37,427 nt of DNA, taken from a virus. Where the stretch lies: positions 1-37,427 of the IMG/VR virus record IMGVR_UViG_3300046002_008655. The stretch is one strand, 5' to 3'. A program made the position numbers and the translations under genes. The notes under the pieces were generated by a model. That model did not search any database. It worked only from the letters and a program-made list of their open reading frames with translations, and had not been told where the DNA came from. How positions within the stretch are numbered: the first letter of the stretch is position 1; each line of letters starts with the position of its first letter. Below are positions 86 to 7,626 of the stretch, piece by piece.

Positions 86-733
86 TCACGGGTTCAACAT
101 CAATAAATCAGGTTTAAATATGTCTTTAACGTCTGTAGAAGGCTCAAACGTGGAATATTTGTCCTCCTGAGGAATCTTTATTATAATTCCATTTGAAATG
201 TCTTTAAATGCCTTTTCAAACAGTTTTAAACCCATAGGTAATAGATCATCATTCCAAATCTTTTGAGCACCTGACCTCACATTTAAGAAATGTTGAGGGT
301 CGATATGTATAAACTCCTGGTAAGCAATATCGCCCCTGTCAATGCCAGCGTTAAGCCAAAACACAGTTCCACCGGTTACAGGCTCTCTCATTCTAAGAGC
401 CCATTCAATTGAGGACTTGCCCCGATGTCTAGGCAAAAGGCTAGGATGGTAACCAATCCAGCCTATTGACGGCTTATATCTAGTTAGCCTCCCTATGTAG
501 TCAAATGAGTGAGCAGTAACGCCAAGGTCAACATTATCAGGAAAGTTTTCGTGGTTCAAAGTTCCCGCCTCAATAATGGGAACGTTGTGAATGTTAGCCA
601 ATCTAGTCAAGTACTTATCGCCAACAGGTGCGCAAACGCCAACTATTTCAATAAAATCTAGGCGTTGGCATAACCTAAAAACTTCTTGACCAAAGTATTT
701 TTGACCAGAAATAAAAACTCTAATTTTCTTCAT
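86..733 (-). CDS. Formyltransferase-fold enzyme of the DNA-modification-like cluster
   Basis: 215 residues from the ATG at 733; a longer frame upstream would overlap the GNAT frame, whereas this start overlaps its end by only 14 bases. Residues 1-12 form a Rossmann-type first strand, and residues 96-105 carry the HPSLLPRHRG loop of the methionyl-tRNA formyltransferase/GART fold. D132 (in GID) sits 36 residues after H96, as in the family. The catalytic Asn normally two residues before the His is Gly94. Known relatives transfer formyl from 10-formyl-tetrahydrofolate to an amine. Downstream of an ABC-ATPase/GNAT pair at the mom end of a Mu-like phage, the target could be a modified base or a precursor; that is inference. 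Lacking Asn, it may have a different chemistry. Confidence 0.8.
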   Translation of the reverse strand: MKKIRVFISGQKYFGQEVFRLCQRLDFIEIVGVCAPVGDKYLTRLANIHNVPIIEAGTLNHENFPDNVDLGVTAHSFDYIGRLTRYKPSIGWIGYHPSLLPRHRGKSSIEWALRMREPVTGGTVFWLNAGIDRGDIAYQEFIHIDPQHFLNVRSGAQKIWNDDLLPMGLKLFEKAFKDISNGIIIKIPQEDKYSTFEPSTDVKDIFKPDLLMLNP

Positions 734-1253
734 TTTCAATATATTTAAAAGATTGTACAGCTCTGAAGTGTCCACCATAACCGCAGCCAACAATTTGACC
801 GTTGCCCGTTTTATTAATTGATGTCTGACTTCTTTTTTTATTCGAACCAAATAACATAGCTCCAGTTTGTTCCCACTTATCGGAATGTCTTAAGTATGAG
901 CAAAGCTGAGGGTGTGAGGTGTGAAAAAAAGTGTGATACTTGTGTCCGCATCTGCCTTTACCTTGTTTGTGATACCTCATAACCTCATTTAAAAAAGTAG
1001 TTCCAACTCCTGCTCCCTGCCACTCAGGCATTACAACTAGCCTTGTAGCCCTGTAGGCCTTGGCAGTAAATAAAGGGCAAACTGCAACGTGTGCTACAAG
1101 CTAACCGTCAACAGTTGCCACGAAGTATTCGGCCGCGGGTGGATGTGGGAGGTCTAAATAATAATGCTCTTTAAAAAACTTCCAGTAAGTTCCGTTGACC
1201 TTCCAAATGTCGATTTTGATTTCTGGGCGCTTTCCGATTGCACTTTTTTTTTT
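720..1253 (-). pseudogene. Mom/GNAT-type acyltransferase domain, detached from the ABC-ATPase by a frameshift and a TAG
   Basis: The -1 frame relative to the ATPase gene encodes a GNAT domain: the acetyl-CoA loop reads PEWQGAGVG (residues start near 1028), preceded by the strand TRLVV and followed by a C-terminal GHFRAVQSF segment. The coding potential runs from the A10 run at 1244-1253 to the TAA at 720. It is interrupted by an in-frame TAG at 1101-1103 (context VDG*LVAH). The frame from the ATG at 1031 alone would give 103 residues, starting in the middle of the fold, so it is unlikely to act alone. The intact arrangement matches COG2401, ABC-ATPase fused to an acetyltransferase domain, related to Mu Mom. 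It is either decayed, recoded twice, or partly a homopolymer read error. Confidence 0.7.
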
Positions 1254-1846
1254 AATATGCCAGTGTTCGTGTCAAAAATCCAATCGGGTTGCAGCCATTC
1301 AGCAACATCATAATGGCATGATAGCAAAACGGCTTTCTTTCCCTTATTTTTTCTCCAGGACTTAGCAAAAGCAAGAGCACCAATTTTAGCTATTTGACGA
1401 TCCACAACACTTGTGAACTCATCAATGACAACTTCATTTGGAGAATCAATTATTACTCTTGCTAAGCCCGCTCTAAATTGCTGACCATTTGAGAGCCTGT
1501 TAAAAGGTTTTATCCATGATGGAACATCACCAAGCCCAACACTTGCCAAAGCTCCTGTTACTTGGTTAAAATCGCATTCTTGACCTATGCAGTCTACAAT
1601 TGGCAACTCATTATTCCAATCCTTGTATAAATCAATAATACAATCCTTGCCAAAGACTTTTTTACCTAATGATGTCTTACCTGAACCGCTAGGACCTACA
1701 ACCAATCCAAGTGACCAGTCTAAGTCTTCCACATTCAAATCAAATGTTCTTTCAAATAAATTTGATTCGGCGTTAAATAACGACTTTACTCTTGAAGCTC
1801 TGTAACTTTTAAAGTCAGGGCTTTCGTTTTTAATTTCAATTTTCAT
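1154..1846 (-). CDS. ABC-type ATPase of COG2401 type (Mom-associated)
   Basis: 230 residues with all ABC nucleotide-binding motifs: Walker A GPSGSGKT (51-58), signature LSNGQ (118-122), Walker B VVIDE with catalytic E143, and H-loop H178. No membrane segments are present, so it is not a transporter. After residue 201 the frame runs through an A10 run, and the residues from there to the stop look like out-of-frame translation, while the -1 frame continues into a GNAT domain. The intended product is therefore probably a fused ATPase-acyltransferase of about 375 residues. Its ATG overlaps the stop of the preceding 49-residue gene (GTATGA), so the two are translationally coupled. Role in base modification is inferred from family and location. 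Confidence 0.8.
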   Translation of the reverse strand: MKIEIKNESPDFKSYRASRVKSLFNAESNLFERTFDLNVEDLDWSLGLVVGPSGSGKTSLGKKVFGKDCIIDLYKDWNNELPIVDCIGQECDFNQVTGALASVGLGDVPSWIKPFNRLSNGQQFRAGLARVIIDSPNEVVIDEFTSVVDRQIAKIGALAFAKSWRKNKGKKAVLLSCHYDVAEWLQPDWIFDTNTGILKKKVQSESAQKSKSTFGRSTELTGSFLKSIII

Positions 1847-1992
1847 ACTGTAACAACTTTTAGCTTAAACCCTTTTTTTGATAAATCATTGAATACTTCA
1901 ATCTGCTGTAGCTCAGTTTCGCAGATTACAATTACTCCAAATTGCTCTTTGTAGTTGAACTTTTTTTCCTTTTTTTCTTTACTCTTTTCCAT
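1843..1992 (-). CDS. Small conserved-looking protein upstream of the ABC-ATPase
   Basis: 49 residues, ATG at 1992, TGA overlapping the ATPase start by 4 bases. A lysine-rich head (KEKKEKK) precedes a short globular part with the pattern FGVIVIC followed by a helix and ending GFKLKVVTV, which looks like two beta strands around a helix. I recognise no named domain. Its strict coupling to the ATPase suggests it is a partner or regulator of the modification enzyme rather than a chance frame. It heads the left-end cluster, just after the hairpin at 2015-2098. Confidence 0.65.
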   Translation of the reverse strand: MEKSKEKKEKKFNYKEQFGVIVICETELQQIEVFNDLSKKGFKLKVVTV

Positions 1993-2014
1993 CTTTTTTA
2001 ATTAAATTTGTAAA

Positions 2015-2098
2015 ACCACACATAAATAAAAATGCGCAAACACTTATTAAGAACTTATAGCTCTCGGCAAGTGCTTGCGCAGTTAAAAAATGTGTGGT
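2015..2098 (-). terminator. Nested inverted repeat, terminator or attenuator before the modification cluster
   Basis: Inner arms 2033-2045 and 2069-2081 form a 13-bp stem. Its only non-Watson-Crick position is A:C on the + strand but G-U in a leftward RNA, so the leftward transcript is the form that folds best. A TTTTTATTTA tract follows directly. Outer arms ACCACACAT (2015-2023) and ATGTGTGGT (2090-2098) enclose it. It separates the fibre genes from the ATPase cluster, so the cluster may be reached only by readthrough or antitermination, as a tightly controlled mom gene would be. Confidence 0.6.
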
Positions 2099-5987: not shown

Positions 5988-6967
5988 AATCTAATTCCTA
6001 ATTGAATGGTTCTACTTCCTCCAGCGTCTGAAAAGTTTGTTTCAACGCTCGTGCAATAGTAATTTCCTGCCTTTGGATTCTCACCCTTTTCATTCTTGTA
6101 ATCATCGTCGGAGAAGTGAACCGTGTAAGTGGGCTCGCAGTAAGGAATCAACCATCCTGTAAATGAGCCTTCGTAACGATTACCACTTCTGAGTAACATT
6201 TCGGCATTAACCAAACTCTCCAGTCCTTTTTGAGAGGTTGCAGAAACGGTTCTGGTAATTTTGTCACCTCCTTCAATGCCAGCTTTTGCGGTCAATTTCT
6301 TGCCGTCCTTACCTGTGCACTCGATGTTAATTTCAATCTTTTTATCTTCTGGTTTCTTGTACTCAAGCGAAGCACTTTCCACATTTTGTTGCATGCGGTA
6401 TTTCACTTGACCTGTTTTCAAAAGATAAGGCGCATGAATGTGTAATTCCTTCAACTCGGTATTGAAAAAGATATTCACCTTCAATTCCTCCACCAATTTC
6501 AACAGCACATCGTAAGCTGTGGCTTTGTAAATTGTGAACTTTTCATACGTGAAATCAAAATCGCACACAACGGTGTAACTCTTATCCACCTGGTCCACTA
6601 AATACTGCGCTATTGTTTTCACAGTCGGCAACTTGAATATCTTATCCGGAACAGATTTACGGAACACAAAAAGCGCATCCTCGCAGTTGATCACAAGCGC
6701 ATTTGAATTATTTGTTATTTCAGTAATGAAACCTACAAACTCCGTTTTTAAATTAGAGTCGTAACCTAGTTTAATCGTAACTGCAGTTCCACGATTGATT
6801 TTATCTTCAATCTTCAAAACGGTATTTAACACCGATTCGGGAAGTACAATTGTAGCCGTGTCCGCAAGGTTCTCAACTGATTTTTTGATATTAACAGACG
6901 CGAGCAGCTGCAACTTGAATTTCTTTCCGTTGTTATTAAATTGTATGTCGTAGTTCAAACCGTACAT
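5984..6967 (-). CDS. Baseplate hub protein (Mu gp44 / gpD-like)
   Basis: 327 residues. The N-terminal half has the late-control/gpD-like pattern TATIVLPES, INRGTAVTIKLGYD, EFVGFITEI and later TAYDVLLKLVEELKVNIFF; the C-terminal part has repeated beta strands and ends SDAGGSRTIQLGIRL. Such proteins form the trimeric hub that clamps the spike. It overlaps the neighbouring genes by 1 and 4 bases. Domain identity is by pattern and gene order. Confidence 0.7.
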   Translation of the reverse strand: MYGLNYDIQFNNNGKKFKLQLLASVNIKKSVENLADTATIVLPESVLNTVLKIEDKINRGTAVTIKLGYDSNLKTEFVGFITEITNNSNALVINCEDALFVFRKSVPDKIFKLPTVKTIAQYLVDQVDKSYTVVCDFDFTYEKFTIYKATAYDVLLKLVEELKVNIFFNTELKELHIHAPYLLKTGQVKYRMQQNVESASLEYKKPEDKKIEINIECTGKDGKKLTAKAGIEGGDKITRTVSATSQKGLESLVNAEMLLRSGNRYEGSFTGWLIPYCEPTYTVHFSDDDYKNEKGENPKAGNYYCTSVETNFSDAGGSRTIQLGIRL

Positions 6968-7626
6968 TAGTCAATTTCTAATAAAAGTTCGCTCGTAAAA
7001 TCACTTAAACATTGAATTTCGTAGGCCTGTACATTCTCACCTTTTGTGAATGGGAATGAGAATGATTTTACAACTACTCGGTTAATTCCAAGCAATTGTA
7101 AAGGCTCGCAATAAAGTTCAATTCCTGCAGGGTGCGTGCAAAATTCCTTTAAGCGCTCAAATTGTTCAATCGGATAGCAGTCCTCAACACTTCCAGTTTC
7201 AACTGCTCCAATCATTACTCCAGTAATAGTAATTTCATAGTCATCTTGTGACCAATGTTCTTTGACCGTACCAACGAAGTTTTTTGCCTTTGCTACTTTT
7301 CTTGTAATAATTGAATTGCCACCCGAAATGGAAATCATTGGCTCGTAAGGAAATTGGTAGGCCTGATTTGTTCCTGGTCGTGAAAAAGTAAGTGGAAAGA
7401 AATGAGAGGGCAATGAATTTTTATCTGCCTGCCAATTATTCAAATCCTTATAATCATTGTAAGCGATATCAATCATTTCTTGGCGTGTGCTTGTGCCAAA
7501 AAATGGAATCGGGATCACAGGCAATACACGTTTCGACAATTCATTTTGAACTGTGGCAAAGCGAGGCAAGCTTTCAGCTACTTTAGAGCCAACCAATGAA
7601 GCGAATATGATTTGATTTTTATCCAT
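6967..7626 (-). CDS. Tail protein of DUF6046 type, upstream of the hub
   Basis: 219 residues from the ATG at 7626, one base after the tape-measure stop; an ATG at 7638 would add four residues and overlap. The protein has a GTSTRQEMIDIAY helix, then SGGNSIITRKVAKAKNFVGTVKEH and YEITITGVMIG, with PFTKGENVQAYEIQCLSD near the end. This pattern matches DUF6046, found between tape measure and hub genes in Bacteroidota phages, the place of Mu gp43 (DNA circularisation-like N protein). It probably connects the tail tube to the hub. Confidence 0.6.
   Translation of the reverse strand: MDKNQIIFASLVGSKVAESLPRFATVQNELSKRVLPVIPIPFFGTSTRQEMIDIAYNDYKDLNNWQADKNSLPSHFFPLTFSRPGTNQAYQFPYEPMISISGGNSIITRKVAKAKNFVGTVKEHWSQDDYEITITGVMIGAVETGSVEDCYPIEQFERLKEFCTHPAGIELYCEPLQLLGINRVVVKSFSFPFTKGENVQAYEIQCLSDFTSELLLEID

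Follow-up and report, generated by a model that had tools for sequence, protein, structure and literature searches.

The modification specified by the com-mom genes of phage Mu is N6 carbamoylmethyl-adenine. The locus described here resembles com-mom in its GNAT superfamily enzyme, in its right-end late position in Mu-like phages and in a small upstream gene that overlaps the GNAT gene. Mu Mom, however, has neither the ABC domain nor the formyltransferase (FT) found here, and the small protein of this locus, unlike that of com-mom, is a ParB tail without zinc-finger cysteines.

Frameshifts in dnaX and copA make a truncated isoform. The putative recoding of ABC-GNAT genes is similar in that a frameshift to a nearby stop would yield a second, shorter ATPase; the genes are nevertheless different, and the ABC-GNAT family alone shows both +1 and -1 solutions. 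The RF2 gene (prfB) shares with the fused ABC-GNAT genes an SD-like GGRGG element, a 3-nt spacer and a CTT shift codon (layout of the RF2 site as quoted in PMC8710568). In prfB, CTT is followed by a stop, whereas the fused genes have a sense codon at that point; moreover, unlike in prfB, their 0 frame would lead to the long product and the +1 frame to the short one. In RECODE, CUU-stop sites are found for prfB only (PMC10885494).

The ABC ATPase-GNAT system itself (phage pT24; PHROG 11143) was predicted by Iyer, Aravind and colleagues in 2013 to be a DNA-base acyl-modification system, as cited in PMC7824862. The same two domains and the ParB neighbour recur in the present cluster, which differs in adding an FT and in using a free ParB tail. 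The passage of PMC7824862 that treats this system does not mention frameshifting, and in the literature searched, where the 2013 prediction is known through PMC7824862, there was no earlier account either of frameshifting in the ABC-GNAT family or of an FT partner of ABC-GNAT.

The locus and its gene family

The window, the whole 37.4-kb record that was analysed, is a Mu-like phage contig. It encodes a Mu-type portal, a phage transposase, a terminase and tail genes, and the cluster (positions 86-2098, minus strand) adjoins the tail genes at one contig end. All the parts named in the earlier note (ABC ATPase, GNAT, FT and 49-aa ORF) are present there; on the minus strand, they follow the order small protein, ABC-ATPase, GNAT, FT:

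2015-2098, minus strand: large nested hairpin 5' of the operon (fold z -8.9), with arms 2015-2023/2090-2098 and 2030-2045/2069-2084
1843-1992, minus strand: small protein of 49 aa, matched by the small-protein and ParB-tail profile
1154-1846, minus strand: ABC ATPase, 0 frame up to the stop at 1154-1156 (Pfam ABC_tran, E=9e-7)
1244-1253, minus strand: A10 run (T10 on the plus strand), probable programmed -1 frameshift site from ABC to GNAT
about 720-1243, minus strand: GNAT domain in the -1 frame, with motifs EWQGAGVG, FHTSHP and GGHFRAVQ (1031-720 when the ORF is counted from its first start codon)
86-733, minus strand: FT, Formyl_trans_N (PF00551; E=2.4e-15)
39-81, no strand assigned: inverted repeat of 17 nt, perfect, shortly beyond the FT stop codon and close to the end of the contig

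By direct reading, the ATPase carries a Walker A (GPSGSGKTS), an ABC signature (LSNGQQFRAG) and a Walker B (VVIDEF), and the window aligns with the ABC-GNAT family across both halves, given a -1 frame change. The model of a homologue has an ABC fold (Z 16) and a GNAT fold (Z 14.6 to 1y9k), and homologue L130 matches phrog_11143 (E=1.7e-144). On these motifs and matches, the cluster is assigned to the ABC ATPase-GNAT family (PHROG 11143). The GNAT frame of the window contains a premature TAG at 1101-1103. This is the sole lesion private to the contig, the ABC/GNAT frame break being a conserved feature. The sister contig L002 has no TAG at that position but is itself decayed: at 6585-7003, its A-run is shortened, and an internal deletion removes most of GNAT and FT. 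Intact copies of the GNAT are present elsewhere, in many isolates.

The structure that the earlier note called a terminator-like hairpin is indeed a large hairpin, though a consensus scan of 2015-2098 found no classical T-tailed terminator. Stable nested hairpins also lie 5' of the small ORF in loci L085, L086, L089, L092, L099, L100, L137 and L156; the element may serve in termination or as a regulatory leader. In the relatives' hairpins, the outer stems vary in sequence yet stay paired, and an inner GGAGGAC-loop-GTCTTC, absent from the window and L002, is near-constant.

Relatives were gathered by searches with the window ATPase and FT. The search for the same gene order in other Mu-like phages, proposed in the earlier note, located it in several groups. 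In particular, it occurs in Mu-like phages of Flavobacteriales, Sphingobacteriales and Porphyromonas, as well as in Pseudomonas phage Komp_PAO1_1 and many proteobacterial and verrucomicrobial genomes. A query with a Leptospira protein gave no additional loci except its own phage. In Gordonia phages, a ParB-like gene is followed by ABC-GNAT, FT and then terminase; thus, the proposed mom position fits the present phage, where the cluster is at the tail-gene end of a Mu-like contig, but is not general. Other arrangements were seen in single loci. Locus L219 (phage pT24; 2495-3667) has a second GNAT break after HHYL, with continuation in another frame, and locus L308 on an Acinetobacter baumannii plasmid (1339-3064) consists of a ParB-like gene, an ABC-only ORF and a 'thioredoxin family' ORF, possibly another split arrangement that is plasmid-borne.

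A ParB-like protein or a ParB tail is near-universal beside ABC-GNAT, and an upstream ParB-like partner is a trait of the PHROG 11143 family that the window displays through the ParB tail only (49 aa). The 49-residue partner of the earlier note is present beside the ABC gene, not as a novel unrelated protein but as a stand-alone ParB tail: in other phages, ABC-GNAT is preceded by a ParB-like protein, and the small protein corresponds to its C-terminal tail (tail motif FxVIVxCxxExxQxxxFxxLxxxGxxxKVVxV). A profile built from ParB tails and small proteins, with the 49-aa protein itself among the seeds, matches it with 82 bits. The motif closes the ParB-like gp1 of Gordonia phages, being joined to ParB there, and is free-standing in most Mu-like phages; among FT-containing loci, the small form occurs 79 times and the long form 30 times.

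Frame changes between the ABC and GNAT domains

In all 72 split Bacteroidota loci, an A7-A11 run precedes GNAT, which is in the -1 frame, and the 0-frame ABC stop is found 84-93 nt past the run (72/72); the short product of the window would be ABC with a tail of ~30 residues. The run comprises 9-11 A in 69 of the loci and A7 in three, while in Capnocytophaga L151 only A_AAA_AAG (CGA AAA AAG) is left. The -1 frameshift heptamer A_AAA_AA[AG] is thus found in 72/72 and also in L151. The -1-frame peptides align with fused homologues, and from run to stop the proportion of identical codons is 0.72-0.85 versus 0.53-0.64 expected, with the constraint ending at the stop. According to the tree, the split arose once, with one reversal. 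RNA structure downstream of a slip site is common at -1 frameshift sites but not obligatory; for 25 sequences analysed with RNAalifold, no consensus pairs were detected 3' of the slip site. In a separate arrangement, seen in Streptococcus, Lactococcus and Oenococcus phages, the ABC frame closes at the same position, with GNAT at -1.

In fused relatives, the ABC/GNAT junction bears GGRGG-NNN-CTT-YGG, an RF2-site layout in which a sense codon replaces UGA. The in-frame GGRGG-N3-CTT-YGG sequence occurs in 44 of 85 nonredundant fused genes versus 0.22 expected under synonymous resampling, and the relaxed RGRGG-N3-CTT in 58 of the 85 versus 0.45. At the site, residues alternate between R and G and between W and R while the nucleotides are constant. 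Moreover, the +1 frame is open from the site to a stop that overlaps the HxYL Leu codon in 83/85 genes (37.2 expected from each gene's own codon use, z 11.4). When all loci are considered, the short-product frame ends at this HxYL-Leu-overlapping stop in 132/134 (61.5 expected). The Ser that follows the Leu of HxYL is encoded by AGY 36 times and by TCN once, and synonymous constraint in the fused genes peaks at the RF2-like site and at the stop. An out-of-sample set of 58 fresh loci, retrieved by patterns from other protein regions, contains the common stop in 58/58 (21.6 expected) and the relaxed motif in 39/58 (0.33 expected). Approximately one third of the fused genes lack the motif even in its relaxed form, many having GTT or CAT for CTT. 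The fused genes thus possess the SD-like element 3 nt 5' of CTT and the open +1 frame of RF2-type sites; the codon in the A site after CTT is, however, CGG, TGG, CGA or a similar sense codon rather than a stop. As judged from these features, the site is one that works like RF2 but is not a strict RF2 site. Constraint also acts on the codons F-x-x-H-x-Y-L before the +1 stop, H being CAT and Y being TAT, which would give the short product the ending I-x-I, a possible C-terminal signal or degron.

Conservation of the 0-frame stop was at one stage regarded as independent proof within Bacteroidota. This argument was withdrawn, because single-ORF Bacteroidota genes without an SD-like element also keep the +1-frame stop (TTA-GAC); the conservation regained meaning when the same stop was found in the +1 frame family-wide.

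These patterns make it very probable that the family makes two programmed products by frameshifting, namely ABC with a tail and ABC-GNAT, and we conclude that the short and the long forms both appear to be wanted. Frameshifting by -1 (or +1) would yield them together, allowing ABC dimers of mixed composition to form or the GNAT dose to be limited, as with DnaX tau/gamma. It is highly improbable that the frame break reflects damage, a sequencing error or two genes with re-initiation. The private TAG of the window, the decay of L002 and the annotation of two ORFs in P335-like phages are what such an explanation can call on. However, site and direction are common to 72/72 loci, including two copies (L138, L139) on a finished Chryseobacterium chromosome, and on this ground the pseudogene reading was rejected. 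An independent GNAT start was likewise ruled out for most loci: the GNAT frame has no start codon between the A-run and the 0-frame stop in 59 of 72, most loci having none 5' of the conserved GNAT residues, and re-initiation therefore cannot explain most split loci. RNA polymerase is well known to slip on long A runs, and the prevalence of A9-A11 would suit a model in which it, rather than the ribosome, generates the -1 products of Bacteroidota phages. We regard this as unlikely, since A7 (three loci) and A_AAA_AAG (one locus) are too short for efficient transcriptional slippage and the fused relatives reach the same two products by an RF2-like ribosomal site. Another idea, that the -1 solution arose only because Bacteroidota ribosomes ignore SD sequences, is made less certain by the retention of the SD-dependent prfB frameshift in 72% of Bacteroidia (PMC8710568).

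If two-product frameshifting is correct, RF2-like frameshift sites would extend to a second gene family, ABC-GNAT, where a sense codon follows the shift codon, and the family would have re-invented two products repeatedly by opposite frame changes. This would strongly suggest that the modifying enzyme requires an accompanying ABC-only subunit. It would also mean that automatic annotation displays only the long product of fused genes and, in Flavobacterium and Streptococcus phages, divides the enzyme into two pieces.

The formyltransferase and its proposed chemistry

FT is associated with a particular part of the ABC-GNAT family. Within the phage collection, it was found in 18 of 19 records with an ATPase sharing 50% identity or more with that of the window and in 0 of 32 with a more distant ATPase. 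Of 120 FT-containing loci, 117 have it 3' of ABC-GNAT at a spacing of -30 to +60 nt, an order far beyond chance. In an ABC tree of 120 ATPases, sampled partly by FT, a single clade of 77 (SH-aLRT 99) gathers the FT-containing sequences; there are two exceptions, one being the decayed sister of the window. Moreover, the GNAT motifs F[HN]TSHP and GGHxRAVQ are present in FT-containing loci and absent from those without FT. Judging from distribution and tree, FT is very likely to be a dedicated partner of one ABC-GNAT clade, which includes Bacteroidota, Proteobacteria, Verrucomicrobia and Gordonia phages. Given such a partnership, the one-carbon step suggested in the earlier note is likely to be part of the system. 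The same note had pointed to sugar pathways as a different setting for FT; no sugar pathway genes were seen, by eye, beside 16 FT loci without ABC-GNAT. In Streptomyces, an FT homologue without ABC-GNAT (L206, 5001-5999) precedes an acyl carrier protein (PF00550).

The FT has the features of Formyl_trans_N (PF00551), i.e., the fold, the HxSLLPxxxG motif (here HPSLLPRHRG) and the His/Ser/Asp residues. The latter (His105, Ser107 and Asp141, P0001 numbering) are invariant in 47 aligned FT sequences. In profile comparisons, it matches the hydrolase domain of 10-formyl-THF dehydrogenase (FDH) at E=1.6e-30, FMT at 7e-23 and ArnA at 3e-12, which makes the FDH domain its nearest solved relative in sequence. 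By fold, FT is level with FMT, FDH and ArnA (Z 25-26.6), and HypX ranks lower; kinship with FDH is thus favoured by sequence only, not by fold.

The amine N-formyltransferases PurN, FMT and ArnA have Asn two residues before the His, and FT does not: position 103 is Gly in 47/47 aligned sequences, whereas GART, FMT and ArnA have Asn. In FDH, Ile104 occupies the place of the Asn that is crucial in other enzymes, and Ile104Asn reduces its hydrolase activity to <10% (PMC4388273). FDH/ALDH1L1 and the N-terminal domain of HypX share their fold with FT; FDH also shares the HPSLLPRHRG motif, the His/Ser/Asp triad and the lack of the catalytic Asn, though it has Ile where FT has Gly. Unlike FDH and HypX, FT is a stand-alone protein with no ACP or enoyl-CoA hydratase module, and it has no counterpart of the C-terminal domain that FMT and FDH carry.

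GNATs use acyl-CoA; taken together with an FDH-like FT without the Asn, this makes 10-formyl-THF to formyl-CoA to target the simplest chain. FT would take the formyl group from 10-formyl-THF and hand it to a thiol, most simply CoA, and GNAT would then N-formylate its target using formyl-CoA. There are precedents: FDH formylates a phosphopantetheine thiol, and HypX is the proposed maker of formyl-CoA (PMC6802093). Homology suggests this transfer and the subsequent use of formyl-CoA by GNAT, which we nonetheless put forward tentatively, at somewhat short of an even chance. The main rival reverses the order: GNAT would add an aminoacyl-like group, and FT would formylate its free amine in the manner of FMT and sugar N-formyltransferases. 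Most characterised Formyl_trans_N enzymes do formylate amines, and the FT fold is as near to FMT and ArnA as to FDH. However, the replacement of the catalytic Asn of amine formyltransferases by an invariant Gly and a sequence match to FDH whose E-value is seven orders of magnitude better render the reversed order rather improbable.

The target of the module

The mark is proposed to be placed on an amino group of a phage DNA base, where it would protect against host nucleases. This assignment follows a prediction already published for the family, together with the phage context, and we give it an even chance. The ParB partners, too, fit a DNA target, which is predicted. Resemblance to Mom, from which the earlier note argued, extends to the GNAT superfamily and the genome position and no further. 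The GNAT part matches the generic Acetyltransf_1, no Mom model was returned from Pfam or PHROGs at the thresholds used, and none of the fold matches listed was Mom.

Alternatively, the module might modify a protein or RNA (e.g., RNA polymerase, the ribosome or tRNA) for host takeover. GNATs commonly modify proteins, and those of phages include protein-modifying enzymes such as phiKMV Rac, as described in PMC7824862. We consider such a target doubtful in view of the ParB-like partners or tails beside nearly every ABC-GNAT, the prediction by others that the family modifies DNA, and the mom position in several Mu-like phages.

With DNA as the preferred target, the cluster may be viewed as a phage modification module composed of a ParB-type adaptor, a two-form ABC-GNAT and a clade-specific folate-dependent FT, a description that we think could equally prove right or wrong. 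The adaptor, whether a whole protein or the tail peptide only, would work with the ABC ATPase-GNAT. A more specific and speculative version, which we consider unlikely as a whole, is phage DNA N-formylation: an FDH-like FT would make formyl-CoA, GNAT would place a formyl or formyl-containing group on the base, and recoding would fix the mix of ABC-only and ABC-GNAT family-wide, with +1 (RF2-like) and -1 shifts as solutions to the same need. The ABC-GNAT system as a prediction and frameshifting as a device were known already; probable frameshifting in this family, its two opposite frame solutions and the FT branch are new relative to the literature searched. If true, the FT branch makes a concrete chemical prediction, namely formyl-CoA and a formylated base.

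Some of the components carry other names in existing annotations. The FT of Gordonia phages is annotated as 'tRNA-methyltransferase', and the ParB-tail small protein of Porphyromonas phages (L075, 5876-6004, and relatives) as 'acr candidate'.
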